Below are positions 1,261-38,284 of a DNA stretch of 38,284 nucleotides, piece by piece. The position numbers and the translations under genes are program-made. The stretch spans positions 1 through 38,284 of the forward strand of contig JAPUHN010000080.1 of assembly GCA_027297685.1 (NCBI GenBank). Reading direction: 5' to 3'. This DNA is from Alphaproteobacteria bacterium. GTDB taxonomy: Bacteria; Pseudomonadota; Alphaproteobacteria; UBA6615. Every line of letters starts with the position of its first letter. Position 1 is the stretch's first letter. The notes under the pieces were generated by a model. That model made no database searches. It was given only the letters and a program-made list of their open reading frames with translations, and was not told the origin of the DNA.

Positions 1261-2183
1261 CAAGGGCTCGGTGTCGACGTTTGCGGCGCTCGGGTGGCAC
1301 GCGAGTCGCTGCGTTCGCGGACCGCCAGATAGGTGGCGCCAGCGAAGATCATGATGCCGCCGGTCCAGGTGAAAACATCCGGTACTTCGGCAAATAATGC
1401 AAAGCCGAGGATCGAGGCCCAAACCAGCCGGAAAAAATCCACCGGCAACACCACCGTGGTATCGGCGAGCCGTAAAGCCTGCGCCAGCGTCAGATGCCCC
1501 GCCGTCCCGATCATCCCCATAATGAACATCAGGCCGTACTGTTCCAGGGTCGGCCAGCTCCAGAAGAATACCGCCGGTATCAGGGACATCGGCACCATAA
1601 ACACGACCATGTAAACGACTATGGTCGGCGGCGCGTCTCTGCGCCCGAGCGACTTGATAACGACGAGGATGGTTCCCCAGAGAAAGGCCGACGCGAGGAT
1701 CAGCAATGGGCCAGTATCGAGTTCGACAAAACCCGGCCGCAATATCACCAAGGTGCCGGCGAACCCAAACATCATTGCAGCCCATCGCCGCCAGCGGAAG
1801 ACCTCGCCGAGGAATACAACGGCAAGCGCGGCGGCAAACAGCGGCGCCGCGAAGGCTAACGCGTTGGCGGTCGCCAGCGGAGTCGTTGAAATGCCCAAGA
1901 AGAACATCATCATCGCGCATACATGGCCTAGCGACCGCACGATATGGACGCGAATTCGGTCGGTTCTGAACAGCCCCCAGCCGTAGCGGGCGAGCAAGAA
2001 AATCGCGATCGGCACGCCGAAGAAGTTTCGGAAGAAGGCAACTTCGAAGGGATGCAACTGCGTGGTCAGTTCGCGGATGAACGTGTGCATCGACACGATC
2101 ATGATGGTCGTCAAAAACATCCAGGCCATGCCCTGGACGTTGGTCGGCAAGCGGTCCAGCACCGATGTGTTCAATACGCTCAA
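1260..2183 (-). CDS. DMT-superfamily (EamA) transporter
   Basis: The protein of about 307 residues is strongly hydrophobic, with two repeats of around five membrane helices. This is typical of EamA/RhaT-type drug/metabolite transporters in the inner membrane. The first half ends with the conserved FLGE..RWRRW loop, and the second half has the matching LRLADTTVVLPVDF and FTWTGGIMIFAGATYL segments. It is the first gene of the operon and overlaps the polyketide synthase by TGATG, so exporting the product or a precursor is a plausible role but is inferred. The start is uncertain. The codon at 2183 is TTG without a clear ribosome-binding site, and GTG at 2162 or ATG at 2129 are alternatives. Confidence 0.85.
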   Translation of the reverse strand: MSVLNTSVLDRLPTNVQGMAWMFLTTIMIVSMHTFIRELTTQLHPFEVAFFRNFFGVPIAIFLLARYGWGLFRTDRIRVHIVRSLGHVCAMMMFFLGISTTPLATANALAFAAPLFAAALAVVFLGEVFRWRRWAAMMFGFAGTLVILRPGFVELDTGPLLILASAFLWGTILVVIKSLGRRDAPPTIVVYMVVFMVPMSLIPAVFFWSWPTLEQYGLMFIMGMIGTAGHLTLAQALRLADTTVVLPVDFFRLVWASILGFALFAEVPDVFTWTGGIMIFAGATYLAVRERSDSRATRAPQTSTPSP

Positions 2184-2291
2184 ACGTTATACTCCAGTGG
2201 CGCCGGCAGCTCGGTTGTGCGCCTGCTGCGATTACCGCAAGATGGCGGGACTGACATACAAGCCCAGCGGGCAAGCGGGGAAACAAGAACG

Positions 2292-2606
2292 ATGATCACG
2301 GCAATTGTCCAGTTCAAAGTCGCCGACGGCGTAAGTCGTGACGAAATATTGACCAACATGCGAAACGTCGCCCCGCGCTTCGAGGCCGTACCCAGCCTGA
2401 TCCGCAAAAATTTTCTGCTCGACGAAGAACGCGGCGGCGGCGTTTATACGTGGGAGACGCGCGAAGCGGCGGAACAATTTTACGCCGAGGGCGGCGCCTG
2501 GCGCGAAGCCATTCGCAATTTGTACGGCGTCGACCCGGAAATCACATGGTTCGAGACGCCGATCGTCGTCGACAACGCCATCGGCGAAATAAAAATGTCC
2601 GCCTGA
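2292..2606 (+). CDS. YdhR/antibiotic-biosynthesis-monooxygenase-like dimeric alpha-beta barrel protein
   Basis: The protein is 104 residues. It opens with an ITAIVQFKV strand, followed by a helix (SRDEILTNMRNVAPRF), a strand pair (LIRKNFLLDE, GGGVYTWE), a helix starting REAAEQFYAEG, and a final EITWFETPIVV strand. This matches the YdhR-like branch of the dimeric ferredoxin-like barrel family, whose members are putative small monooxygenases or heme/aromatic binders. The ATG at 2292 has a GGGGAAA ribosome-binding site just upstream. A longer upstream extension of the frame lies over the divergent exporter and is ignored. The gene lies 48 nt before an MDR oxidoreductase and is probably co-transcribed with it. 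The substrate is unknown. Confidence 0.75.
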   Translation: MITAIVQFKVADGVSRDEILTNMRNVAPRFEAVPSLIRKNFLLDEERGGGVYTWETREAAEQFYAEGGAWREAIRNLYGVDPEITWFETPIVVDNAIGEIKMSA

Positions 2607-2654
2607 ACCACCATCGAACCGCCGCGCTCGGCCGGTCACGGAGAAAACCCTGCC

Positions 2655-3656
2655 ATGGGCTCGATAAAGAAAGCCGTCCAATTCGCCCGCACCGGAAATC
2701 CACCCGACGTGGTCGAAGTGATCGATTTGGAAACCCCGGCGGTCGGTCCCGGCGAAGCGTTGATCGACATAGAAGCGGCGGCGATCAATCCGGCGCACCT
2801 GCTGACCCTGTCCGGCAGCTACGGCGTTCAACCGGAATTGCCGGCGATTCCCGGCGCCGAAGGGATCGGTAAGATCGTCGAGGTCGGCAGCGGCGTCACC
2901 AACGTCAAGCCCGGCGACCGGGTGATGATCCCGCCTTATACTGGCACATGGCGTCAACAGGCCGTGGTGCAGGCTGACCACATCTTGGTGTCGTTCCCGC
3001 CTGAGGGCGATCCGATACAAATGGCGATGATCATGGCCAACCCGCCGACCGCTTGGCTGCTGCTGAAAACCGTGGTCGATCTGGAACCTGGCGACTGGGT
3101 GATCCAGAACGCGGCCAACTCGGCGGTCGGCCAATACCTCATGCAGCTTGCCCATATATACGGCTACAAGACAGTCAACGTAGTCCGCCGCGAAGGCTTC
3201 GACGACCTCGTCGCCAAATCCAATGGCGATATTTGTGTCGTCGACGGCGCCGATCTGGGCGAGCGGGTCAAGGCCGCGACTGGCGGCGCCGATATCAAGC
3301 TCGGCATCGACGCCGTGGCCGGCGAGGCAACGCAACATTTGGCCGATTGCCTGGTCGAGAACGCGACGATCGCCAATTACGGACTGCTGTCGGGTGCTCC
3401 ATGCCACTTGTCGCCCAATGATATTATTTTCCGCAATATCAACCTGAAGGGCGTGTGGCTGACGATGTGGCTGCGCGGCCGGGACTCGACGCCGGAGCAA
3501 CGTGCCGCCGTCTACGATGAACTGCGCGGCTATATTATCGAAGGCCGCATGCATGCCGAGGTCGAGGCGACTTACACGCTGGCGCAGATCAAGGACGCCG
3601 TCGCTCACGCCTTGCGTCAGCGCGGCGGTAAAATCGTCATCCTGCCGAACGGTTAA
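2655..3656 (+). CDS. Zinc-independent MDR-family reductase, 2-enoyl thioester reductase-like (MECR/ETR type)
   Basis: The 333-residue medium-chain dehydrogenase/reductase has an N-terminal GroES-like domain (IEAAAINPAHLL, IPGAEGIGKIVEVG, VKPGDRVMIP) and a Rossmann domain (GDWVIQNAANSAVGQYLMQLA). The QNAANSAVG segment and the WLLLKTVVDL stretch before it resemble the NADPH-dependent trans-2-enoyl-CoA/ACP reductase group. No zinc-binding cysteines or histidines are evident. The ATG at 2655 follows a GGAGA ribosome-binding site. It probably reduces an enoyl thioester or a quinone-like substrate in the cytosol, and the exact substrate is not determined. It forms a likely operon with the genes on either side. 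Confidence 0.8.
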   Translation: MGSIKKAVQFARTGNPPDVVEVIDLETPAVGPGEALIDIEAAAINPAHLLTLSGSYGVQPELPAIPGAEGIGKIVEVGSGVTNVKPGDRVMIPPYTGTWRQQAVVQADHILVSFPPEGDPIQMAMIMANPPTAWLLLKTVVDLEPGDWVIQNAANSAVGQYLMQLAHIYGYKTVNVVRREGFDDLVAKSNGDICVVDGADLGERVKAATGGADIKLGIDAVAGEATQHLADCLVENATIANYGLLSGAPCHLSPNDIIFRNINLKGVWLTMWLRGRDSTPEQRAAVYDELRGYIIEGRMHAEVEATYTLAQIKDAVAHALRQRGGKIVILPNG

Positions 3657-5450: not shown

Positions 5451-6872
5451 ATGTCGGAAACAACGGTCAGTAACGGGTTTCTCATGCGCACCCGCGGCTT
5501 ATTGCGGCGCGCGCTGCAAGACGTCGTCAGCGTGGCCAGCCGCGATCGCAGCACGCCGTTGCGCCCGGACTTGCCCGACGACGACCTGAAACTGCTGCGC
5601 GAACGTATCGACGCCAGCTTGTCTGGCCGTGGTGGAGAGGCGTCGGCGCGCGGCAATGCGGCGCAATTGGGACGCTATTATCTCGACCTGAACGACGACG
5701 GCAGGACGCGGTTTTTCCAACTGCTCGCCGAGAATTATGGCGTCGACGGTGACGGGCTGACTCAGGCGATGGACAACGTCCGGACGGTCGAGGACAACCC
5801 CGCGGCGTATGCTCGCGCGGTGGATCGGCTGCGCGAATACCTTCAACCACCGAGGATGCATTTATTTAGGCAATTTAATAGCTTAAGCCATGGAGTTAAA
5901 TTTTTAGTCGATATGCGGGCCGACCTTCGTGGCCTGCTAAAAAACCATCCCGAACTGCGGCCCGTCGAAAGAGAATTGTGGTCCTTGTTGGGCGGTTGGT
6001 TCGACGCCGGGTTTCTCGAGTTGCGTCACGTCACATGGGCCGCGCCGGCCGATCTGCTGGAAAAACTGATTGCCTACGAGGCGGTGCACGAGATCCGATC
6101 GTGGACCGACCTCAAGAACCGCCTCGAATCGGACCGCCGTTGCTATGCGTTTTTCCATCCGAACATGCCCGACGAGCCGCTGATTTTCGTCGAGGTGGCC
6201 TTGGTGGACGGCATGGCCGACAATGTTCAGGAGCTGCTCGACGAATCCGCGCCATCGGGTGACCCGGAGAACGCCAATACAGCCATTTTCTATTCGATAT
6301 CCAACGCCCAACAGGGATTGTCCGGCGTCAGTTTTGGTGACTTCCTCATCAAGCAGGTAGTCGACGACCTGTCGCACGAACTGCCCAACCTGAAAACCTT
6401 CGCCACCTTATCGCCGATCCCCGGCTTTCGCGGTTGGCTCGACTCGCGGTTCGAAGCCGGTGCAGAACTGCTCAACAACGATCAGCAGGTTCGGCTCGCC
6501 GCACTGGCCGGCGACACCGGCGACACCCCGCCATTACAGGCGCTGCTCGATCGGCCCCACTGGTATCAGGACGAAGACACCACCGCCGTTTTGCAGCCGA
6601 TCCTGTTCCACTTGGTGGCCGGCTACTTGCTCTACCAACGCCGGGAGTCGTCAGGCACCGCGCTAGATTCGGTCGCCCATTTTCATCTGAGCAACGGCGC
6701 CCAGGTCGAGCGCGTCAATTGGTTGGCCGACCGTTCCGAACGGGGCATGCAGCAATCGGCTGGAATGATGGTGAATTATCTCTACGCCCTCGACCAGATC
6801 GAGGATAACCATGAGGCCTATGTCACGGGCGGCGAAATTCCCGCGTCGAACGCGGTTAGAAACTTACTTTAG
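5451..6872 (+). CDS. Malonyl-CoA decarboxylase
   Basis: The protein is about 473 residues and is similar over its whole length to the MLYCD family, which converts malonyl-CoA to acetyl-CoA and CO2. The N-terminal helical domain (to about residue 170) is followed by the GNAT-like catalytic domain. Recognisable blocks are CYAFFHPNMPDEPLIFVEVAL, NTAIFYSISNAQQGL, LPNLKTFATLSPIPGF and, near the end, VAHFHLSNGAQVERVNW with the histidine of the active-site region. The tail MVNYLYAL is typical. The start is uncertain: ATG at 5451 is chosen, but an in-frame GTG at 5409 would add 14 residues. Neither has a strong ribosome-binding site. It is a single gene flanked by oppositely oriented neighbours. A role in malonate use or fatty-acid balance is inferred. 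Confidence 0.92.
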   Translation: MSETTVSNGFLMRTRGLLRRALQDVVSVASRDRSTPLRPDLPDDDLKLLRERIDASLSGRGGEASARGNAAQLGRYYLDLNDDGRTRFFQLLAENYGVDGDGLTQAMDNVRTVEDNPAAYARAVDRLREYLQPPRMHLFRQFNSLSHGVKFLVDMRADLRGLLKNHPELRPVERELWSLLGGWFDAGFLELRHVTWAAPADLLEKLIAYEAVHEIRSWTDLKNRLESDRRCYAFFHPNMPDEPLIFVEVALVDGMADNVQELLDESAPSGDPENANTAIFYSISNAQQGLSGVSFGDFLIKQVVDDLSHELPNLKTFATLSPIPGFRGWLDSRFEAGAELLNNDQQVRLAALAGDTGDTPPLQALLDRPHWYQDEDTTAVLQPILFHLVAGYLLYQRRESSGTALDSVAHFHLSNGAQVERVNWLADRSERGMQQSAGMMVNYLYALDQIEDNHEAYVTGGEIPASNAVRNLL

Positions 6873-6912: not shown

Positions 6913-7494
6913 TTAGCCTGACGAGCGCCTGCTTTCGGCGTTGAGATAGAAGATGTGGCGGCCGATCTGCGGCCCCGCGACGAACGCTTCGCGCCAATAG
7001 GGCTTGACGTACTCCGCGTGGTACCAAAGCGCGCCACCGGTCGGGTCTTGGGTCTGGCCATTGTAAATGAACCAGGCAATCAGGCGGGCCGCGTTCCAGG
7101 CGACTTCGTTGCGGGGCTGGTCGCTGCGCCCGTCGCACCACCACGAGAACTGACAGCGGTGGCGCCGCTGCTCGCCGCCCTGACGAATAACACTACAAAC
7201 CGTATCTGGGAAACGCTTGCTGGCGACGCGATTTAGCACCACATGGCCGACCGCCAACATGCCGTCGGCCGGCTCGCTGCGCGCCTCGAAATAGATGTTT
7301 TGTGCAAGGCAGGTGATTTCGTCGCTGAGTGCGATCTGCTTCGAGAGGGAGATGGGGAGAACGTGGCTCGGCGTCACCACCGCAGAGTCCGCTGACGATG
7401 GCGTGGCAACCGCTAGTGCCGCCACGCAACAGCCGGCGATAAGGGCGGCTTTACCTGAAAAGCTTTTTGCAAACCTGGCACAAAGTCCCGTCAC
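6913..7494 (-). CDS. SleB/CwlJ-type cell wall hydrolase (exported)
   Basis: The protein is 193 residues. It starts with a basic N-terminus and a hydrophobic segment (AALIAGCCVAALAVATPSSADS) that should act as a signal peptide or membrane anchor. The Hydrolase_2 domain follows, with NIYFEARSEP (Glu70 is the likely catalytic acid), GMLAVGHVVLNRV, FPDTVCSVI and CQFSWWCDG. Family members cleave peptidoglycan as lytic transglycosylases. In non-sporulating alphaproteobacteria they are thought to act in wall turnover. The gene is single and divergent from imuA across an AT-rich intergenic stretch. Confidence 0.88.
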   Translation of the reverse strand: MTGLCARFAKSFSGKAALIAGCCVAALAVATPSSADSAVVTPSHVLPISLSKQIALSDEITCLAQNIYFEARSEPADGMLAVGHVVLNRVASKRFPDTVCSVIRQGGEQRRHRCQFSWWCDGRSDQPRNEVAWNAARLIAWFIYNGQTQDPTGGALWYHAEYVKPYWREAFVAGPQIGRHIFYLNAESRRSSG

Positions 7495-31151: not shown

Positions 31152-31841
31152 ATGAAAAAAAAACGCGCTGAGACCCTGGAAGATGCCGTAGCCAACGTCG
31201 AAGACGGCGCCACCGTGCTGCTCGGCGGGTTTGGCGGAACGTCGGTCCCTGAGTTTCTGATCGATGGTGTGTGCGATCGCGGCCTGCGCGAACTGACCAT
31301 CGTAAGCAACAATGCCGGCAACGGTCGCACCGGGTTGGCCCGAATGATAGAGGAAGGTTGCGTGGCGAAATTGATCTGCACTTTCCCCTGGGCCAAGGAT
31401 TCGTTCGTCTTCAAAGAACTCTACGACGCCGGCAAAATCGAACTCGAGATCGTGCCGCAAGGCACCTTGGCCGAACGTATGCGCACCGCGGGCGCCGGCT
31501 TGGGCGGTTTTCTGACGCAGACGGCAGTCGGTACCGACCTCGCCGAGGGCAAACAAGCGCTCACCATCGACGGCAAGGATTACATTCTGGAACTGCCGTT
31601 GCGCGCCGACATGGCCCTGATCAAAGCCTACAAGGTCGATCCCCGCGGCAATCTGGTCTACCGCAAATCCGCCCGCAACTTTAGCCCGATCATGGCGATG
31701 GCCGCCGACCACACCATCGTCGAGGTGGCGGAAGAAGTCGCGATCGGCGACCTCGACCCCGAGGTCATCATCACTCCGGGCGTTTTCGTCGATCGTTATT
31801 TTATCACCGGTCCCTACGATCTCGGCAGAGGAAAGCGATGA
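31152..31841 (+). CDS. 3-oxoacid CoA-transferase subunit A
   Basis: The protein has 229 residues from ATG 31152 with a lysine-rich start. The class I CoA-transferase A pattern is clear: GGFGGTSVPEFLIDGV, NNAGNGRTGLARMIEEGCVAKLI, TLAERMRTAGAGLGGF, ALIKAYKVDPRGNLVYRK and DLDPEVIITPGVFVD. It acts with subunit B, whose start overlaps its stop (ATGA). It lies directly behind the thiolase-like/DUF35 pair, so it may release or activate the keto-acid product of that pathway. The exact keto-acid (adipate-like, steroid fragment or acetoacetate) is not known. Confidence 0.92.
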   Translation: MKKKRAETLEDAVANVEDGATVLLGGFGGTSVPEFLIDGVCDRGLRELTIVSNNAGNGRTGLARMIEEGCVAKLICTFPWAKDSFVFKELYDAGKIELEIVPQGTLAERMRTAGAGLGGFLTQTAVGTDLAEGKQALTIDGKDYILELPLRADMALIKAYKVDPRGNLVYRKSARNFSPIMAMAADHTIVEVAEEVAIGDLDPEVIITPGVFVDRYFITGPYDLGRGKR

Positions 31842-32527
31842 GCGCGCAAATCAACCGGTTGACCCCCCACCTCCTGACAAGAGGCCAGATAGCGGCTTGC
31901 GTTGCCGCCGATCTGGAAGAAGACTGGCTGGTCAATCTGGGCATCGGCATGCCGACGCTGATCCCGGAATATATTCCGCCAGGCCGCGACGTGATGTTCC
32001 ACAGCGAAAACGGCATCATCGGCATGGGACCGCCGCCGGCGCCGGGCGAGGAGGACCAGGATTTGATCAGCGCCGGCAAGGGGCTGGTCACGCTGATCCC
32101 GGGCGGCGCCTACGTGAACCACACCGACTCGTTCGCGATCGCCCGCGGCGGCCGGCTCGACTGTGCGGTGCTCGGGGCGTTTCAGGTCGCCGCCAACGGC
32201 GATCTCTGCAACTGGCGTCTGCCGAACCAGACATCGGGCAGCGTCGGCGGCGCGATGGATATAGCAGTAGGTGCCAAACGGGTGTTCGTGACGATGAGCC
32301 ACACGACCCGCGAGGGCGACGCCAAGATCGTCGCCGAGCGCACCTATCCGCTGACCGCCGGCGGTGTCGTCACCAAGATCTACACCGACATGGCGGTGAT
32401 CGCGGTGACGCCAGATGGATTGGTACTCGAGGCAATAGCGCCGGGCCTGACGGCCGACGATGTGCAGGCGGCTACCGGCGCGCCGCTCGACTCCGCCAAT
32501 GTCGGGACAATCTCCGTGGCGGCCTGA
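31838..32527 (+). CDS. 3-oxoacid CoA-transferase subunit B
   Basis: The protein has 229 residues. The catalytic glutamate is Glu57 in FHSENGIIGMG, the standard SENG motif. Other marks are NLGIGMPTLIPEYIP, ISAGKGLVTLIPGGAYVNH, FAIARGGRLDCAVLGAFQVAANGDL, GAMDIAVGAKRVFVTMSH and the closing LTADDVQAATGAPL. It forms the active site with subunit A and overlaps it by four nt. The operon probably ends here, as a palindromic repeat follows. Confidence 0.93.
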   Translation: MSAQINRLTPHLLTRGQIAACVAADLEEDWLVNLGIGMPTLIPEYIPPGRDVMFHSENGIIGMGPPPAPGEEDQDLISAGKGLVTLIPGGAYVNHTDSFAIARGGRLDCAVLGAFQVAANGDLCNWRLPNQTSGSVGGAMDIAVGAKRVFVTMSHTTREGDAKIVAERTYPLTAGGVVTKIYTDMAVIAVTPDGLVLEAIAPGLTADDVQAATGAPLDSANVGTISVAA

Positions 32528-32616: not shown

Positions 32617-33021
32617 CTAGCCGACCGGGTGTTTCTCGAAATAGTCGATGTCGGCCGGCGTCGCCTGCCACTCGGCGTTGCTCGGCCAGTCGACCATGCG
32701 CGCCGCCATATCGGCGCCATAGCGCACCCGGAACAGCAGCGTGCGTTCCGGTCCGTTGGCGTATTCGTGCACCTCGCCCGGCGGATGCACGATGAACGCG
32801 CCGGGTTTGACCTCGATGGTGCCGTCGGGCGTCGTCATGGTGCCGCCGCCCAGGTAGCAGAAGTAAATTTCCGTCGCGTCAGGATGGCAGTGGTTCGGGC
32901 TCACCTGGCCCGGTTCCCAGCAGGCCACGGTGAAATCGCCTTCGGCCACCGAGCCGAGAATTTTCTCGACGTGGTGCTTGGCGTCGAACTCCTGCTCGTC
33001 GGGAAGACTGAAGGCATACAT
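32617..33021 (-). CDS. Cupin-domain protein
   Basis: The protein is 134 residues from ATG 33021 with an AGGAGAT ribosome-binding site. A longer frame reaching 33129 runs through the tRNA fragment and is not real. The cupin fold shows GQVSPNHCHPDATEIYFCYLGGG (motif 1, with His-x-His and Glu as probable metal ligands) and GAFIVHPPGEVHEYAN (motif 2). Single-cupin proteins of this type are varied enzymes or small-molecule binders, and no substrate is predicted. The gene lies just outside the mobile element. Confidence 0.85.
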   Translation of the reverse strand: MYAFSLPDEQEFDAKHHVEKILGSVAEGDFTVACWEPGQVSPNHCHPDATEIYFCYLGGGTMTTPDGTIEVKPGAFIVHPPGEVHEYANGPERTLLFRVRYGADMAARMVDWPSNAEWQATPADIDYFEKHPVG

Positions 33022-33059: not shown

Positions 33060-33108
33060 TGGCGCGCCCGGCAGGATTCGAACCTGCGACATTCGGCTTA
33101 GAAGGCCG
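33060..33108 (-). other. Attachment-site half: 3' fragment of tRNA-Arg(TCT)
   Basis: Reading the minus strand, the segment has the anticodon loop CTTCTAA with anticodon TCT, a T-arm GCAGG-TTCGAAT-CCTGC, the acceptor 3' half CGGGCGC, discriminator G and an encoded CCA ending at 33060. The 5' half (acceptor GCGCCCG, D-arm) is missing. The anticodon stem loses pairing at its outer base (A at 33109 opposite A). The break therefore lies in the anticodon stem, a typical crossover zone for tyrosine integrases. The integrase gene begins 57 bp further right. Confidence 0.85.
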
Positions 33109-33164
33109 TCGAGCTTCTTTATATTTCAATACCTTAGTTTAGGCATGTCGCGCTGGTGTCGCAA

Positions 33165-34298
33165 TCAGCCCAGCAACCGAGCCTGTATCTCCCGCATCGA
33201 CCGCTTGTCGTCTTCTGGCGTCGAGAATAAATGCCCGTAGCGGTCGAACGTCATGGCCATGCTGGAGTGCCCCATCACGGTTTGCACTCGCTTCGGCTGC
33301 CATCCTTGCTCGATGATTAGCGAGGCTGCGATATGGCGTAGCGTGTGGAATGTGAATTGCGGCTTGCCCTCTTCGTCACAAAGGCCGCACTCCGCCATCA
33401 ATGGCACAAAACCCCGGCGGTATACGTTCGACTGAGCCTCGATATTTCCCCTGCCGTTCGGAAAGACCAAACCAAGCTCGCCATGCGGGCACCGTAGCCT
33501 CCATTCCCTGAGAACGTTGAGGACGATCGGCGCCAGCGGAATCGTCCGCCGTGCCGCTTTCGACTTGGGGCTTCCGATTGTGTTCCATCGGTCTGCCCGT
33601 TGCGTCACCCTGATAGTCTGCTCATCGAAATCGACGTTATCCCACGTTAGGCCCCGAAGCTCCGACGCCCTCAGACCGGTGAAAATTGCCGTCACAATGA
33701 TCGGCCGCCAGCGCCCATCCACCGTATTGATGAGCCGACGAATTTCATCCTTCGAGGGTATTTCGATTGGTTCGTCGTCACGGTCGCTGCGGCGAAACTT
33801 AACCTCGCGGGCCACATTGTGGGCGACCAGACCCTCGCCTTGTGCAAACGAGATAAGTGTCTTCAAATTGGTCAAGACCTTGCGCACCATCTCGCGTGAC
33901 CGGCCATTTTCAAGCATCCATCGGACGAATTTCCTGACCAATTGGGCGTTTATGCGGGCGAGTTTTTCATTGTCAAAGAAAGGACGCATGTGGAGTTCAA
34001 GATGCTGTCGGCGCTGCTGAATCGTTGACCGCTCCAAAGGGTCGGAACCATCCCCGCCTATTTCGCAATGCCGGAGCCACATCTCTCCGGCATCCATAAG
34101 AGTAACGCTGGCGCTCTCTGGGGTGTGTGTGCCCCGGCGAATTTCTGTTTGAGTTTCGGCGCTCCACGAGAGCGCATCCCTCTTGCGCGAGAAGGTCTTG
34201 ATGTGACGTTTCCCTATCTGGTCGGTGTAATCGACTACCCACGCGGTTTTCTTTTCTCCCTGGGGCGTAACCCATTCACGGTTCCTGATACTGGCCAT
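33165..34298 (-). CDS. int: Tyrosine-type site-specific integrase
   Basis: The 377-residue recombinase has an arm-binding start (MASIRNREWVTPQG), a SAM-like core-binding domain (residues about 65-160) and a C-terminal catalytic domain. The active residues are Arg210 (FTGLRASEL), a lysine in SPKSKAARR near 245, His318 and Arg321 (HTLRH), His344 (MGHSSM) and the nucleophile Tyr354 (DRYGHLF). All are present, so it should be active. It lies next to the truncated tRNA-Arg, as expected for the element's left end. Its ATG at 34298 is one base from the stop of the RHH-like gene. Confidence 0.95.
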   Translation of the reverse strand: MASIRNREWVTPQGEKKTAWVVDYTDQIGKRHIKTFSRKRDALSWSAETQTEIRRGTHTPESASVTLMDAGEMWLRHCEIGGDGSDPLERSTIQQRRQHLELHMRPFFDNEKLARINAQLVRKFVRWMLENGRSREMVRKVLTNLKTLISFAQGEGLVAHNVAREVKFRRSDRDDEPIEIPSKDEIRRLINTVDGRWRPIIVTAIFTGLRASELRGLTWDNVDFDEQTIRVTQRADRWNTIGSPKSKAARRTIPLAPIVLNVLREWRLRCPHGELGLVFPNGRGNIEAQSNVYRRGFVPLMAECGLCDEEGKPQFTFHTLRHIAASLIIEQGWQPKRVQTVMGHSSMAMTFDRYGHLFSTPEDDKRSMREIQARLLG

Positions 34299-34299
34299 G

Positions 34300-34908
34300 T
34301 CAGTTTCCCTCCGTTATCTGGACTTCGCCCTTGGGGCGCTTCAGACGTTTGGCGATAGGCCCGAGCAGTGCGCGGATCGGCTCTGCCCGCGTTTCTTCTT
34401 TTTTGGTGACCGTGCGACCCTGTAAAGCATCGACAACACTGCCGCCGATTTCTTGTCCAATTGTCCGGTAGGCTTCGGTGGCTCGGGCATTGTCAAAAAC
34501 AGGCGCGCTCGGATCGCCCTTTGGCTGGGCGGCCAATAGTATCGTCGCAGCGGCTTTTGCCGCTTGCTCGAATGCGTAAGAATCGTTGAACCAATTATCC
34601 GCTGCTTCGAGAGTCCTCTCTTTCACGAAGGCAGCGCCCCGGCCTACATCCTCCATCGCCCAACCGATACTCAACAGCAGGCCCGCCAACCGTGGGCCAT
34701 AGGCTAGTTCAAGAGCGTGAGGCATTAGGTTTTCGTCACGAAAGGACATCTCTAGACGTAACTCTGCCTCTTGGCTTTGTGTGCGCCCACTCTGTTTGGC
34801 AGCCTCGTCAACGCGTCGCTTTATGTCTCCAGTGACCTTGAGTCCCAGTGAGACGCGCTCGCCTGGCTGAGCATTCTTGGTTGGTCTGCCTGTTCGCTTC
34901 TTAGCCAT
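34300..34908 (-). CDS. Ribbon-helix-helix-like DNA-binding protein of the mobile element
   Basis: The protein is 202 residues. A basic N-terminus (MAKKRTGRPTKNAQ) is followed by a beta-strand (ERVSLGLKVTG) and two helices (DIKRRVDEAAKQSGRTQSQEAELRLEMSF), the layout of an Arc/CopG-type ribbon-helix-helix. The remaining 130 residues are helical and not recognised. It is transcribed with the integrase (1-bp gap) and faces the HTH gene across a short region with repeated TATCT-N2-TGATCA. A regulatory role for integrase or excision is inferred. Confidence 0.65.
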   Translation of the reverse strand: MAKKRTGRPTKNAQPGERVSLGLKVTGDIKRRVDEAAKQSGRTQSQEAELRLEMSFRDENLMPHALELAYGPRLAGLLLSIGWAMEDVGRGAAFVKERTLEAADNWFNDSYAFEQAAKAAATILLAAQPKGDPSAPVFDNARATEAYRTIGQEIGGSVVDALQGRTVTKKEETRAEPIRALLGPIAKRLKRPKGEVQITEGN

Positions 34909-34933
34909 AGGGCCTCCGCCGTGAGTTCAATAG

Positions 34934-34993
34934 TATCTTATGATCACTAGAAAGTACTTGCAAGCCTCAACGAACACTATTATCTGTTGATCA
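34934..34993. promoter_or_regulatory. Direct repeats in the divergent control region of the element
   Basis: TATCT-TA-TGATCA occurs at 34934-34946 and TATCT-GT-TGATCA at 34981-34993. They are 13-bp direct repeats sharing eleven bases and set 47 bp apart. They lie between the divergent RHH-like and HTH genes, fitting operator sites for either protein. Confidence 0.5.
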
Positions 34994-35063
34994 TGAGAAA
35001 CAATTTCAACACCCAACAACCACACGCCGTGAGGCGCTACACCCCGAAAGAAGGAGTCCGAAA

Positions 35064-35249
35064 ATGTCAGTTGAAAATATTGAACGGGTGACATGCACCG
35101 TAACCGAGGCGGCAAAAAAACTCGGTATCGGTCGCAATCAAACTTACGCAGCCGTCAAACGCGGCGACATTCCCACGATTAGAATTGGCAAACGCATCCT
35201 GGTACTGGCTAAGGCGCTTGACAGGATGCTGGAAGGTAAAGGGGCATAA
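35064..35249 (+). CDS. Excisionase-like helix-turn-helix protein
   Basis: The protein is 61 residues from ATG 35064 with GAAGGAG eight bases upstream. The excisionase/MerR-like HTH_17 pattern is visible: TVTEAAKKLGIGRNQTYAAVKRGDIPTIRIGKRILV, ending with a short helix (AKALDRMLEG). Such proteins direct excision or regulate early genes. It is divergent from the integrase operon, as is usual in integrative elements. Confidence 0.82.
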   Translation: MSVENIERVTCTVTEAAKKLGIGRNQTYAAVKRGDIPTIRIGKRILVLAKALDRMLEGKGA

Positions 35250-35253
35250 AAAT

Positions 35254-35275
35254 GGCCCCGCTCGAAAGCGGGGCC
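35254..35275. terminator. Stem-loop terminator behind the excisionase-like gene
   Basis: GGCCCCGCT-CGAA-AGCGGGGCC is a perfect 9-bp stem with a tetraloop, five nt after the stop. On the plus strand no T-run follows. On the minus strand it is followed by TTTTT, so it may mainly stop minus-strand transcription or act as an end block. The next 150 bp hold no gene. Confidence 0.6.
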
Positions 35276-35427
35276 GTGCAGGAGATTGGTAAAAATAGTA
35301 CGCCCCCAATACATGGGTGCCTGCACGTGGCTCTACAAGCCCTGACCGCCTGCGTTAGCGGCGTCGCGGCTTTCTTTCAATCATACGCAATCCGGCAATA
35401 TCAGTTGCGCCAAATCGGCAGGGCGAT

Positions 35428-36093
35428 ATGAGCGATTCCACGTCTATCGCCCCCGACGAATTGAATGAGGTCGCCGAGCGAATACGGAATCGTATTCGGC
35501 GATTTACCACGGACATCATCGCGAACGGCGAAGACCTGACCGACATCAAGAGTCGGCTCCCGCACGGTGAATTTATCGGTTGGATTGACCGGGAATTCGG
35601 GATGACCACCAGGACGGCGCAACGGTATATCCAGGCCGCCGAGTGGGCAAAAGGCAAAAACGACATCGTGTCGCATTTGCCGCCGACGACTATTTATCTA
35701 CTGGCCGCGCCATCGACCCCGGCAGAATTCACCGAACGAGTTGTTGCCGATCTCGATGCCGGTCAAGTCATCGATCATGCTGCTTTACAAAAAGAAATCC
35801 GACAACGCCGCGGCGCCGACGACACCCTAGACACCCAACCCGACTATCCGACATTTCGAAAAAAGATCGGGGCTCCTGTTTGCCGGTCGCAAGAGGCGCG
35901 CATCGATGAATTCGAATTACAAATTTACGGCGTCTTCGCGAGGTGCGAAGCACTGGAAGATGTCTATATCGAGCGCGGAAGATCACCCGACTTTGAGGCT
36001 CACTACATTGCCCAATTCGAACAAGCGCAACGCGACCTGAAACGGTTTCTAAACCGCCTCAATGCCACATATTCAGACAGGGGCGACCAGTGA
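35428..36093 (+). CDS. DUF3102-like protein of the mobile element
   Basis: The protein has 221 residues. Residues about 10-75 resemble DUF3102 proteins of phages and plasmids (IIANGEDLTDIKSRLPHGEFIGWIDREFGMTTRTAQRYIQAAEWA). This segment contains a helix-turn-helix-like stretch (MTTRTAQRYIQAA). The C-terminal part is helical and charged, without recognised features. It is the first gene of a run of overlapping genes (GTGA with the next). A role in replication control of the element is inferred from position. Confidence 0.72.
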   Translation: MSDSTSIAPDELNEVAERIRNRIRRFTTDIIANGEDLTDIKSRLPHGEFIGWIDREFGMTTRTAQRYIQAAEWAKGKNDIVSHLPPTTIYLLAAPSTPAEFTERVVADLDAGQVIDHAALQKEIRQRRGADDTLDTQPDYPTFRKKIGAPVCRSQEARIDEFELQIYGVFARCEALEDVYIERGRSPDFEAHYIAQFEQAQRDLKRFLNRLNATYSDRGDQ

Positions 36094-36590
36094 GCCCCGT
36101 CGATCTCTACGGCGAAATGTATCAAGCGCTGTCGCACCCGAGGTCCGCGAATTGGATCGGCGTCGATACCGTCCGCGCCGATGGCGATGGCCTGTATGTT
36201 CCGGATCCCGACGGACCGATCCTCGCCGCCATCGTGGCGGTGATGCCGGACGATGAAATCATCGACCTGGTGGCGATCGATTTGGTGCAGCCGAAGCGGT
36301 GGCGCCGACGCATCGGTGTCGCCAACCTACTCGGCGAGGTGAACCTTATCGGCTTGAGCTTCACCGGCGAGCCGTTGTTGGTTCATGCTAACCCGGCGGA
36401 TTGGTTGAATGCGGGCGGGCGCGGTTGTGCCGTGCTCGAATTTACGCCGAGCGTTTGTGGCCTGCTTCGATCTATTCGCGGCGGGCTCGATGTTGACGAC
36501 GATCCCGACTTTGCCGAACGGTTGGAACGCGAACTCTCCGAGCCCGCGCGGCGCCCAACGATCTATCTCCGCCAACAGAGGGCGGCCTGA
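36090..36590 (+). CDS. Uncharacterised mobile-element protein, possibly Toprim/primase-related
   Basis: The protein is 166 residues and starts with GTG at 36090, overlapping the previous stop (GTGA). It begins MSPVDLYGEMYQALSHPRSANWIGVDTVRADGDGLYVP. The PLLVHANPADWLNAGGRGCAVLEF segment resembles stretches seen beside primase or Toprim proteins of alphaproteobacterial prophages, but no catalytic motif is certain. It overlaps the ATPase gene (TGATG). The coupled DUF3102/unknown/ATPase arrangement suggests a replication module. Confidence 0.6.
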   Translation: MSPVDLYGEMYQALSHPRSANWIGVDTVRADGDGLYVPDPDGPILAAIVAVMPDDEIIDLVAIDLVQPKRWRRRIGVANLLGEVNLIGLSFTGEPLLVHANPADWLNAGGRGCAVLEFTPSVCGLLRSIRGGLDVDDDPDFAERLERELSEPARRPTIYLRQQRAA

Positions 36591-37672
36591 TGGACGAGCG
36601 GGTTTCCCTGGACGAATACCGCCAGAAGTCGCGCCTCAAGCTGGTGCCGTTCGACGACATTAAGTTGGCCACCGACCGAAACTACCTGGTCAAAGGCTGG
36701 GTGCCGGGCGAGGGCCTGGTCATCGTTTGGGGTGCGCCGAAGTGTGGCAAATCATTCCTGACCTTCGACATGGTGATGCACATCGCGCTTGGTTGGAAAT
36801 ACCGGGGCTGCAAGGTGGTCCAAGGCCCGGTGGTCTATCTGGCCGCCGAAGGCGCCCACGGCTTCAAGGCCCGCATCGAAGCGTTCCGGCAGCGCCACTT
36901 GCCAGAGAACCACGAGCCGCCGGCGTTTTATCTGGTCGGCGCCAGTATTGACCTCATCGGCGATCGCACGGAACTGATAGGCGCCATCGAGGTTGCAGGA
37001 TGCGACCCCGTTGCCGTCGTCATCGACACCTTGAACCGGTCCCTGGTTGGTTCCGAATCCCGAGACGAGGATATGGCCAGATATATCCAGGCCGCCGACG
37101 CAATCCGCGAGCGGTTCCACTGTGCCGTTATCATCGTTCACCATTGCGGAATTGCTGACAATCGACCACGCGGTCATACATCGTTGACTGGCGCTGCCGA
37201 TGCCCAGATCGCAGTCAGGCGCGACGGCAACAACAACATCGTCGCCACGCTGGAGTGGATGAAGGATGGCCCCGAGGGTGAAACCCTTACCAGCGCGCTC
37301 GAAGTTGTAGACGTTGGTATCGACGACGACGGCGACCCGATAACCTCTTGCGTCGTTGTCGAGGCCGAGGCATCCGAGGAACGGACATACGAGCGACTAA
37401 CAGGACGCCAACGGCGCGCCGTCGATGCGCTGGCTAATGTCCTGATCGATGCCGGACAGCCGGCGCCGGACGCGACGCACTATCCCAGCGGCGCAACCGT
37501 CGTGCAGGTCGAGACATGGCGTGAGACGCTATTTAAGGCGGGCGTGCTCGATAGGGACGCATCAAACCCTCGCCAACCATTCAAACGGCTAAAGGATACG
37601 CTTACCGAACGTGGCGTTATCGGTGAGTGGAACGGCCTGGTCTGGGTAGTGAGAACCGACGCCGATGTGTGA
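36590..37672 (+). CDS. AAA ATPase of RepA/DnaB helicase type
   Basis: The 360-residue protein has a RecA-like ATPase core. Walker A is GAPKCGKS (48-55), Walker B AVVIDTLNR (about 142-150), a sensor-like VIIVHHCGIADNRPRGHTSLTGAADA region and the strand VVYLAAEGAHG. This is the arrangement of plasmid RepA (RSF1010 type) and phage helicases (AAA_25). The C-terminal part (residues about 265-355) looks like a winged-helix or DNA-binding domain (RQRRAVDALANVL). It starts by TGATG overlap with the preceding gene and is followed at once by an iteron-like cluster, so a role in starting replication of the excised element is likely. Confidence 0.85.
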   Translation: MDERVSLDEYRQKSRLKLVPFDDIKLATDRNYLVKGWVPGEGLVIVWGAPKCGKSFLTFDMVMHIALGWKYRGCKVVQGPVVYLAAEGAHGFKARIEAFRQRHLPENHEPPAFYLVGASIDLIGDRTELIGAIEVAGCDPVAVVIDTLNRSLVGSESRDEDMARYIQAADAIRERFHCAVIIVHHCGIADNRPRGHTSLTGAADAQIAVRRDGNNNIVATLEWMKDGPEGETLTSALEVVDVGIDDDGDPITSCVVVEAEASEERTYERLTGRQRRAVDALANVLIDAGQPAPDATHYPSGATVVQVETWRETLFKAGVLDRDASNPRQPFKRLKDTLTERGVIGEWNGLVWVVRTDADV

Positions 37673-37685
37673 GCCCGTCCTGAGC

Positions 37686-37783
37686 GTCACACCGTCACAC
37701 CCTTTAGGGGTGTGTGACGGATGTGACGGGACGGGCCTGCTGTCACACCGCGTCACTTGTGACGGCAATGTGACGGATGTGAC
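37686..37783. repeat. Iteron-like cluster of GTGAC/GTCAC repeats (candidate origin)
   Basis: Nine copies of GTGAC or its complement GTCAC lie within 98 bp. GTCAC occurs at 37686, 37694, 37742 and 37752. GTGAC occurs at 37714, 37723, 37759, 37770 and 37779. Most are part of TGTGACGG, spaced 8-11 bp. A near-perfect hairpin CACACCC-TTTA-GGGGTGTG lies at about 37696-37714. The cluster begins 14 nt after the ATPase stop. Confidence 0.65.
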
Positions 37784-38177
37784 GGGGTATCAGTTACCTG
37801 GAGAGCCCCGTTCCTGCCACCGGCGCCAAAGCTACAAATTTGCCCGCGCAGTTTACGGATAGGGGGTCAAAATGAAAAACCCGCAGAATACAGACGTTTT
37901 TCTGACAGAGCAGTGCACCAAACTTGGGCAAATCATAGGGGGAAGGTGCTTGGGCGGTGTCCGCTTGCTGTGGACCGGTGCTGCAGTCGCCTTGTCATAA
38001 ACGTCCTGAAAAAAAGTTCTGGCAGTGTTTTTGTATTTCAATGACTTAGCTGAGAAATAGGCCCCAAAACACCCCAAAAACCGTGTCGTGAGACGCCAAA
38101 ACCCGACGATGGAACCGCAATGGCCGACCCGGCCCACAATTTGAAATTTGACGCCGATAAACAGGCCGCGCTTCAGA
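37784..38177. other. Region without a supported gene behind the iteron cluster
   Basis: About 390 bp with no convincing gene. It contains a copy of the TTTGTATTTCAAT..CTTAG sequence at 38030-38054 that resembles one beside the left attachment site. A 22-codon frame at 38120-38188 has no ribosome-binding site and is not supported. The minus-strand frame across it has poor codon content. Confidence 0.5.
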
Positions 38178-38284
38178 ATGAAAAATAATCGCCGGCCACT
38201 TACCGCCGCCGAGAGGCAACGCCGCTATCGTCAGCGTCAAAAGCTTGGCTTGCGAATGTTCTCGGTGGAACTGAATGACAACGA
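38178..38284 (+). CDS. Small phage-type protein of unknown function (partial, N-terminus)
   Basis: The frame starts ATG 38178 and runs off the right edge after 35 full codons. It reads MKNNRRPLTAAERQRRYRQRQ and continues with KLGLRMFSVELND. The TAAERQRRYRQRQ-LGLR pattern is frequent in short proteins encoded early in alphaproteobacterial prophages and islands, with a basic helix and a beta-strand. No function is known to me. It supports that the element continues beyond the window. Confidence 0.6.
   Translation, partial: MKNNRRPLTAAERQRRYRQRQKLGLRMFSVELNDN

Follow-up and report, generated by a model that had tools for sequence, protein, structure and literature searches.

Positions 33060-33108 of the window (the whole stretch of 38,284 nucleotides that was analysed, which is the whole of contig C376 of an alphaproteobacterial genome of 3.84 Mb, assembled in 396 contigs and 97.85% complete) form a real, well-supported integration junction: here an integrative element has entered tRNA-Arg(TCT), and the window shows one of its ends (attL) and the 5.2 kb that come next. 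This is an ordinary integration event, cleanly documented, and the element is of a known kind and cut by the assembly. A satellite-like integrative element is its most likely identity, a reading held here with moderate confidence. The value of the locus is comparative, as it joins a clade of integrases that recombine near the tRNA anticodon with a core of integrase, HTH, hyp166 and helicase genes that recurs in Alphaproteobacteria.

Features of the locus

31838..32527, plus strand: CoA-transferase subunit-like gene of the chromosomal flank (open reading frame; the uninterrupted site of genome G007 has a very similar translation in the corresponding place)
32617..33018, minus strand: cupin-domain gene of the chromosomal flank, adjoining the attachment site (Cupin_2, 40.8 bits)
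33060..33108, minus strand: 3' fragment of tRNA-Arg(TCT), 49 nt, attachment-site core plus chromosomal 3' half (identity to relatives)
33109..33164, no strand: arm of the element, from the core to the integrase gene (43% GC; unmatched in the intact locus)
33118..33142, plus strand: motif TTTATATTTCAATACCTTAGTTTAG, probable integrase/IHF site (repeat)
33165..34298, minus strand: tyrosine integrase, complete, 377 aa (Pfam Phage_integrase, 88 bits; PHROG integrase, E=1.5e-69)
34300..34908, minus strand: weak RHH/TraY-like protein, 202 aa, directly upstream of the integrase gene (TraY, 20.1 bits, cut-off 21.3)
35064..35249, plus strand: HTH_17 excisionase/AlpA-type protein, divergent from the integrase gene (HTH_17, 45.9 bits; NCBIfam excise, 35.9 bits)
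35252..35431, plus strand: small open reading frame of 59 codons, its stop overlapping the next start (ATGA)
35428..36093, plus strand: DUF3102-like protein, 221 aa (DUF3102, 23.1 bits, cut-off 24.4; PHROG families of unknown function to E=8.5e-13)
36090..36590, plus strand: hyp166, a 166-aa protein without assigned family (relatives in integrase-HTH-primase/helicase units)
36590..37672, plus strand: AAA_25 RepA-like replicative helicase, 360 aa (AAA_25, 120.8 bits)
37686..37786, no strand: repeated TGTGACGG units, candidate origin or control region (direct repeat, 76% identity)
38030..38054, plus strand: second copy of the arm motif in the element interior, no tRNA beside it (80% identity over 25 nt to 33118-33142)
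38178..38284, plus strand: basic small open reading frame, start only, cut by the contig end (open frame)

The attachment junction in tRNA-Arg(TCT)

The tRNA fragment matches exactly (49/49 nt) the end of the 77-nt intact tRNA-Arg(TCT) gene in five of the six relatives compared (G004, G020, G023, G006 and G015), and identity to the relatives' intact genes stops at 33108. The break falls in the anticodon stem, at the second base of its 5' strand. Position and exact match thus agree with the preliminary description, which had read a 3' tRNA-Arg fragment with a 49-bp core, broken in the anticodon stem, near a complete tyrosine integrase; the integrase was likewise confirmed by both profile searches, and the spacing between the two needs correction, being 56 bp (33109-33164) rather than 57 bp. 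No intact tRNA-Arg continues across 33109, and no intact tRNA could be found by ARAGORN anywhere in the window.

The same neighbourhood is uninterrupted in G007, which marks the junction as a real attachment junction. In that genome, the CoA-transferase gene, the cupin gene, an intact tRNA-Arg(TCT), a small gene (which we take to resemble an ETC complex I subunit, the gene labels in G007 being our own) and tRNA-Pro(TGG) follow in series with no insert. The cupin gene shares 80% DNA identity with its G007 counterpart and has the same order ahead of tRNA-Arg(TCT), and the gene at 31838..32527 probably belongs to the CoA-transferase family. The CoA-transferase - cupin - tRNA order is common to both genomes up to the tRNA fragment and divergent beyond it, with one or two extra open reading frames in G007 between the first two genes. 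In addition, tRNA-Arg(TCT) and tRNA-Pro(TGG) were found together in several further relatives. The earlier claim that an integrative element has its left end here, in tRNA-Arg(TCT), is therefore upheld by the uninterrupted G007 site, the exact tRNA identity and a complete related element (L122, see below).

The other end lies beyond position 38284, the contig end, which leaves 612 bp after the helicase gene. The last 685 bp have no match in the other contigs of the home genome, an exact 40-mer from the contig end is absent from the viral contigs, and searches with the right-flank DNA of G007 and with the next conserved gene (GspD-like) returned no continuing contig in the bin. Neither an intact tRNA-Arg(TCT) nor tRNA-Pro(TGG) is present among the 32 tRNA matches of the home genome (30 of which were typed by anticodon). 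The absent second tRNA copy is most simply explained by an assembly gap, and because the right flank and tRNA-Pro(TGG) are absent as well, the missing copy is uninformative about the element itself.

Further 3' fragments of tRNA-Arg(TCT) were observed as a tandem pair at 7284-7323 and 8668-8714 of L068 (G010:C46) and at 2675-2720 of L071 (G016:C231), and elements seem to have inserted into this tRNA gene repeatedly in the family.

The integrase clade and its arm motif

The integrase translation shows the catalytic Arg, HxxR, His and Tyr motifs, and relatives with 35-56% identity were detected in 8 other genomes among the 385 sampled. The most instructive of them lies in a complete element of 10.5 kb (L122, G064:C1, 6851-17422), whose integrase is 45-46% identical to that of the window and sits near the fragment end in the same orientation to the tRNA. 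The ends of this element are 50-bp direct repeats at 6851 and 17373, corresponding to the 3' half of a CAT-anticodon tRNA (tRNA-Met). Since these repeats cover the same portion of the tRNA as the window fragment, the recombination site can be placed near the anticodon loop. On the other hand, L122 differs from the window in its CAT-anticodon tRNA, its Cas9, Cas1 and Cas2 genes and the lack of the window's replication genes. It is thus a mobile element, targeted to a tRNA gene, that carries a CRISPR-Cas9 locus with an apparent CRISPR array (judged by eye only), and one relative in the integrase clade moves such a locus.

The fragment - arm - integrase layout of the window recurs at tRNA-Arg(TCT) in L068 (G010) and at a tRNA of anticodon TGT in L127 (G346). 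A related integrase (53%) was also observed on contig C179 of the home genome (L130, about 2175-3161), where it is cut by the contig end and adjoins the 3' fragment of a CAT-anticodon tRNA in the same layout. With the window and C179, the home genome holds no fewer than two elements whose integrases belong to this clade.

A motif close to TTCAATGACTTAGC is present in the short arm (core or tRNA to integrase) of most loci with related integrases. By searching for the 15-mer with up to 4 mismatches in arm intervals drawn by hand, 10 matches were found in 2.9 kb of arms versus 21 in 137 kb elsewhere (a ratio of 22), a count in which the window and contig C322 are not independent, as the motif was derived from these two loci. 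Shuffled arms gave a mean of 0.86 matches and a maximum of 5. The motif resembles the IHF consensus, which is WATCAANNNNTTR, and is probably a binding site for IHF or the integrase. Its copy at 38037 was considered as the right end of the element and rejected, as it has the orientation of the integrase-side arm and no adjoining tRNA sequence. In C322 of the home genome (L132, 143-157), the motif lies 5 bp past an intact tRNA-Arg(CCG) and 140 bp from the contig end, and possibly belongs to a third element of this genome.

Genes of the visible part

The integrase gene and the gene of the weak RHH protein lie side by side on the minus strand, 1 bp apart, and from this pair the genes of the HTH_17 protein, the 59-codon frame, the DUF3102-like protein, hyp166 and the AAA_25 helicase diverge. 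These plus-strand genes are tightly packed: successive frames overlap at 35428 (ATGA) and at 36090, and the last two have one base in common at 36590. Among the gene assignments made from the sequence earlier, the excisionase-like HTH (over the cut-off for both HTH_17 and NCBIfam excise) and the ATPase (AAA_25 at 36590-37672) hold. The RHH-like and DUF3102-like genes are present as open reading frames, but their family labels fall below the respective cut-offs. No match to the 202-aa RHH-like protein was found in PHROG, NCBIfam or PADLOC, nor to the frame at 38178..38284 in phages or plasmids.

The 59-codon frame is 54% identical over 56 aa to its counterpart in L143/L159 of G030, where place and overlap are the same. 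Within it, 27 bases (35345-35371) are identical to about 1705-1731 of L143, an element that is otherwise different and lies in another family. This stretch was considered as a general conserved element and rejected, since a 20-nt pattern from it occurs exactly only in the window and L143 among the sampled genomes; most looser matches look like background, and the two with one mismatch whose loci were inspected (L173 and L174) encode none of the proteins of the element.

A recurrent unit around hyp166, and the helicase

Relatives of hyp166 were identified in 5 other genomes among the 385, and a shorter match in a Xanthobacter plasmid (L104) was found at a looser search space; searches of the phage and plasmid records gave no match. 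L143 carries a hyp166 that is 64% identical to that of the window. Where their surroundings are readable, the relatives are flanked by an integrase gene, an HTH gene or both and, on the other side, by a replication protein, the latter being an AAA helicase in L134 and L104, a DUF3987 protein in L145 and a DUF3631 protein in L146. As in the window, hyp166 in L144, L134/L135, L145, L146 and L147 follows the order HTH - hyp166 - replication protein, with an integrase as neighbour and, in several cases, a tRNA next to it, whereas the integrase is of another type where tested and the replication proteins are mostly different. L144 is complete, with 9.0 kb between 16-bp repeats of the 3' end of tRNA-Ser, and the five of its proteins that were tested showed no structural family; integrase and HNH domains were found. 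Terminase small-subunit-like genes occur near two hyp166 relatives, in L146 and weakly in L134, which fits satellites and defective prophages alike. A single-sequence fold of hyp166 was uninformative (pLDDT 33.6). As a separate observation, the hyp166-AAA unit of L134 (G083:C19, 6305-17966) adjoins CRISPR-Cas-looking genes, identified by eye only.

The AAA_25 relatives in L107, L108 and L104 adjoin restriction or defence-like genes (Beta_protein, sce7726, NaeI, GmrSD, Vsr/methylase or Mrr), a placing that may be analogous to that of defence genes in PICMIs (PMC10803314). When plasmids were searched with the DNA of the whole element, the match was limited to 342 bp within the helicase gene (65%).

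These observations tentatively suggest an undescribed group of small, tRNA-using satellite-like elements in Alphaproteobacteria, in which hyp166 stands between an HTH of the excisionase/AlpA type and a replication protein that can be exchanged (AAA_25, DUF3987 or DUF3631), and which may ferry anti-phage cargo; such a group is a possibility well short of an even chance. If the core belongs to phage satellites, it would provide a searchable marker for such elements in Alphaproteobacteria.

What kind of element

A satellite-like element is favoured over a full prophage because the layout is a compact integrase - HTH - replication series in which no repressor or recombination gene was recognised. 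The earlier suggestion that this may be no full prophage but a phage satellite or a plasmid-like island is thus favoured, but not proven. In the proposed course of events, the tyrosine integrase would join attP and attB at the core near the anticodon loop; the 3' half of the tRNA that the element brings along would make the gene whole again at the far end, and the displaced 49-nt 3' fragment is the one that remains at the integrase end. The HTH_17 protein is probably a directionality factor or an activator for excision, the DUF3102-like/hyp166/AAA_25 operon may serve as a replication module for the excised form, and the TGTGACGG repeats are a possible replication origin. Such an element would be moved by a putative helper phage or conjugative element.

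The strongest competing explanation, to which we give somewhat more than one chance in four, is the left end of a full or decayed temperate phage with its structural genes beyond the contig end. The helicase points in this direction: it matches phage primase/helicase PHROGs, is 34% identical to p101 of Rhizobium phage 16-3, also an AAA_25-type replication protein, and is 44% identical to one in a phage (viral) contig, L079, where an integrase, a primase and the small and large terminase subunits run in one direction. No structural, lytic, terminase, portal or capsid genes were recognised in the visible 5.2 kb, but the lack of portal and terminase there is uninformative, since the contig ends 612 bp after the helicase gene and the terminase of L079 lies 2.9 kb past its helicase. 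What does weigh against a prophage is that the 5 kb shown hold no recognisable repressor or recombination gene, and that a search of 50,697 phage records gave no match to hyp166, which has no confirmed relative in viral contigs either. Moreover, no PF04860 portal and a single weak terminase-like match, outside the window, were detected in the bin, although the missing part may be unbinned. Rhizobium phage 16-3 itself differs in being a full phage, and p101 (54081-56249) is the longer protein.

It is considerably less probable, at roughly one chance in ten, that the element is plasmid-derived or conjugatively mobilised, with a RepA-like helicase replicating the excised form autonomously. The helicase is weakly similar to RSF1010 RepA (1g8y, E=2.6e-5), a related integrase - HTH - hyp166-like - AAA module lies on the Xanthobacter plasmid, and the RHH-like protein gives a sub-threshold TraY match; however, this match concerns a common fold, no relaxase or transfer genes are visible in the part at hand, and the closest helicases accompany primases in phage- or island-like settings. 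Finally, a chance tRNA-like sequence or an assembly chimera, for which the fragmented assembly and the missing right flank might speak, is very improbable and already contradicted by the exact tRNA identity in five relatives, the synteny of the left flank with G007 and the recurrence of the fragment - arm - integrase layout in independent genomes.

Comparison with described elements

Islander genomic islands occupy tRNA genes, and an anticodon-centred attP defines their 'A' class (PMC4383910). The element in the window shares with them the tyrosine integrase, the displaced 3' tRNA fragment and the core near the anticodon loop; of the Islander definition of a tRNA-targeted element, which asks for an integrase inside, a displaced tRNA fragment at one end and an intact regenerated tRNA at the other, the first two parts were found. 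Unlike those islands (PMC4383910), the window shows one end only, and the regenerated tRNA is absent from the assembly.

The PICMI satellites of Vibrionaceae are modelled as an integrase and AlpA (PF05930 or PF12728) with a primase carrying DUF3987 and DUF5906, located next to fis (PMC10803314). The window resembles them in its small layout of integrase, AlpA-type HTH and replication genes and in the small gene abutting the integrase gene (PMC10803314), and both PF00589 and PF12728 were found over cut-off. In contrast to PICMIs (PMC10803314), its site is tRNA-Arg(TCT) instead of fis, and AAA_25 takes the place of the DUF3987/DUF5906 primase in the visible part. By these two tested features, the element is not a PICMI. 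A further point of reference is provided by Gram-negative PICIs, which have no structural or lytic genes and a size of 12-15 kb (PMC6092414). They are also marked by an integrase, a replication module and an AlpA-type regulator, and by a helper phage that induces and packages them; the window offers an integrase, an HTH_17 protein and a helicase in the 5.2 kb visible.
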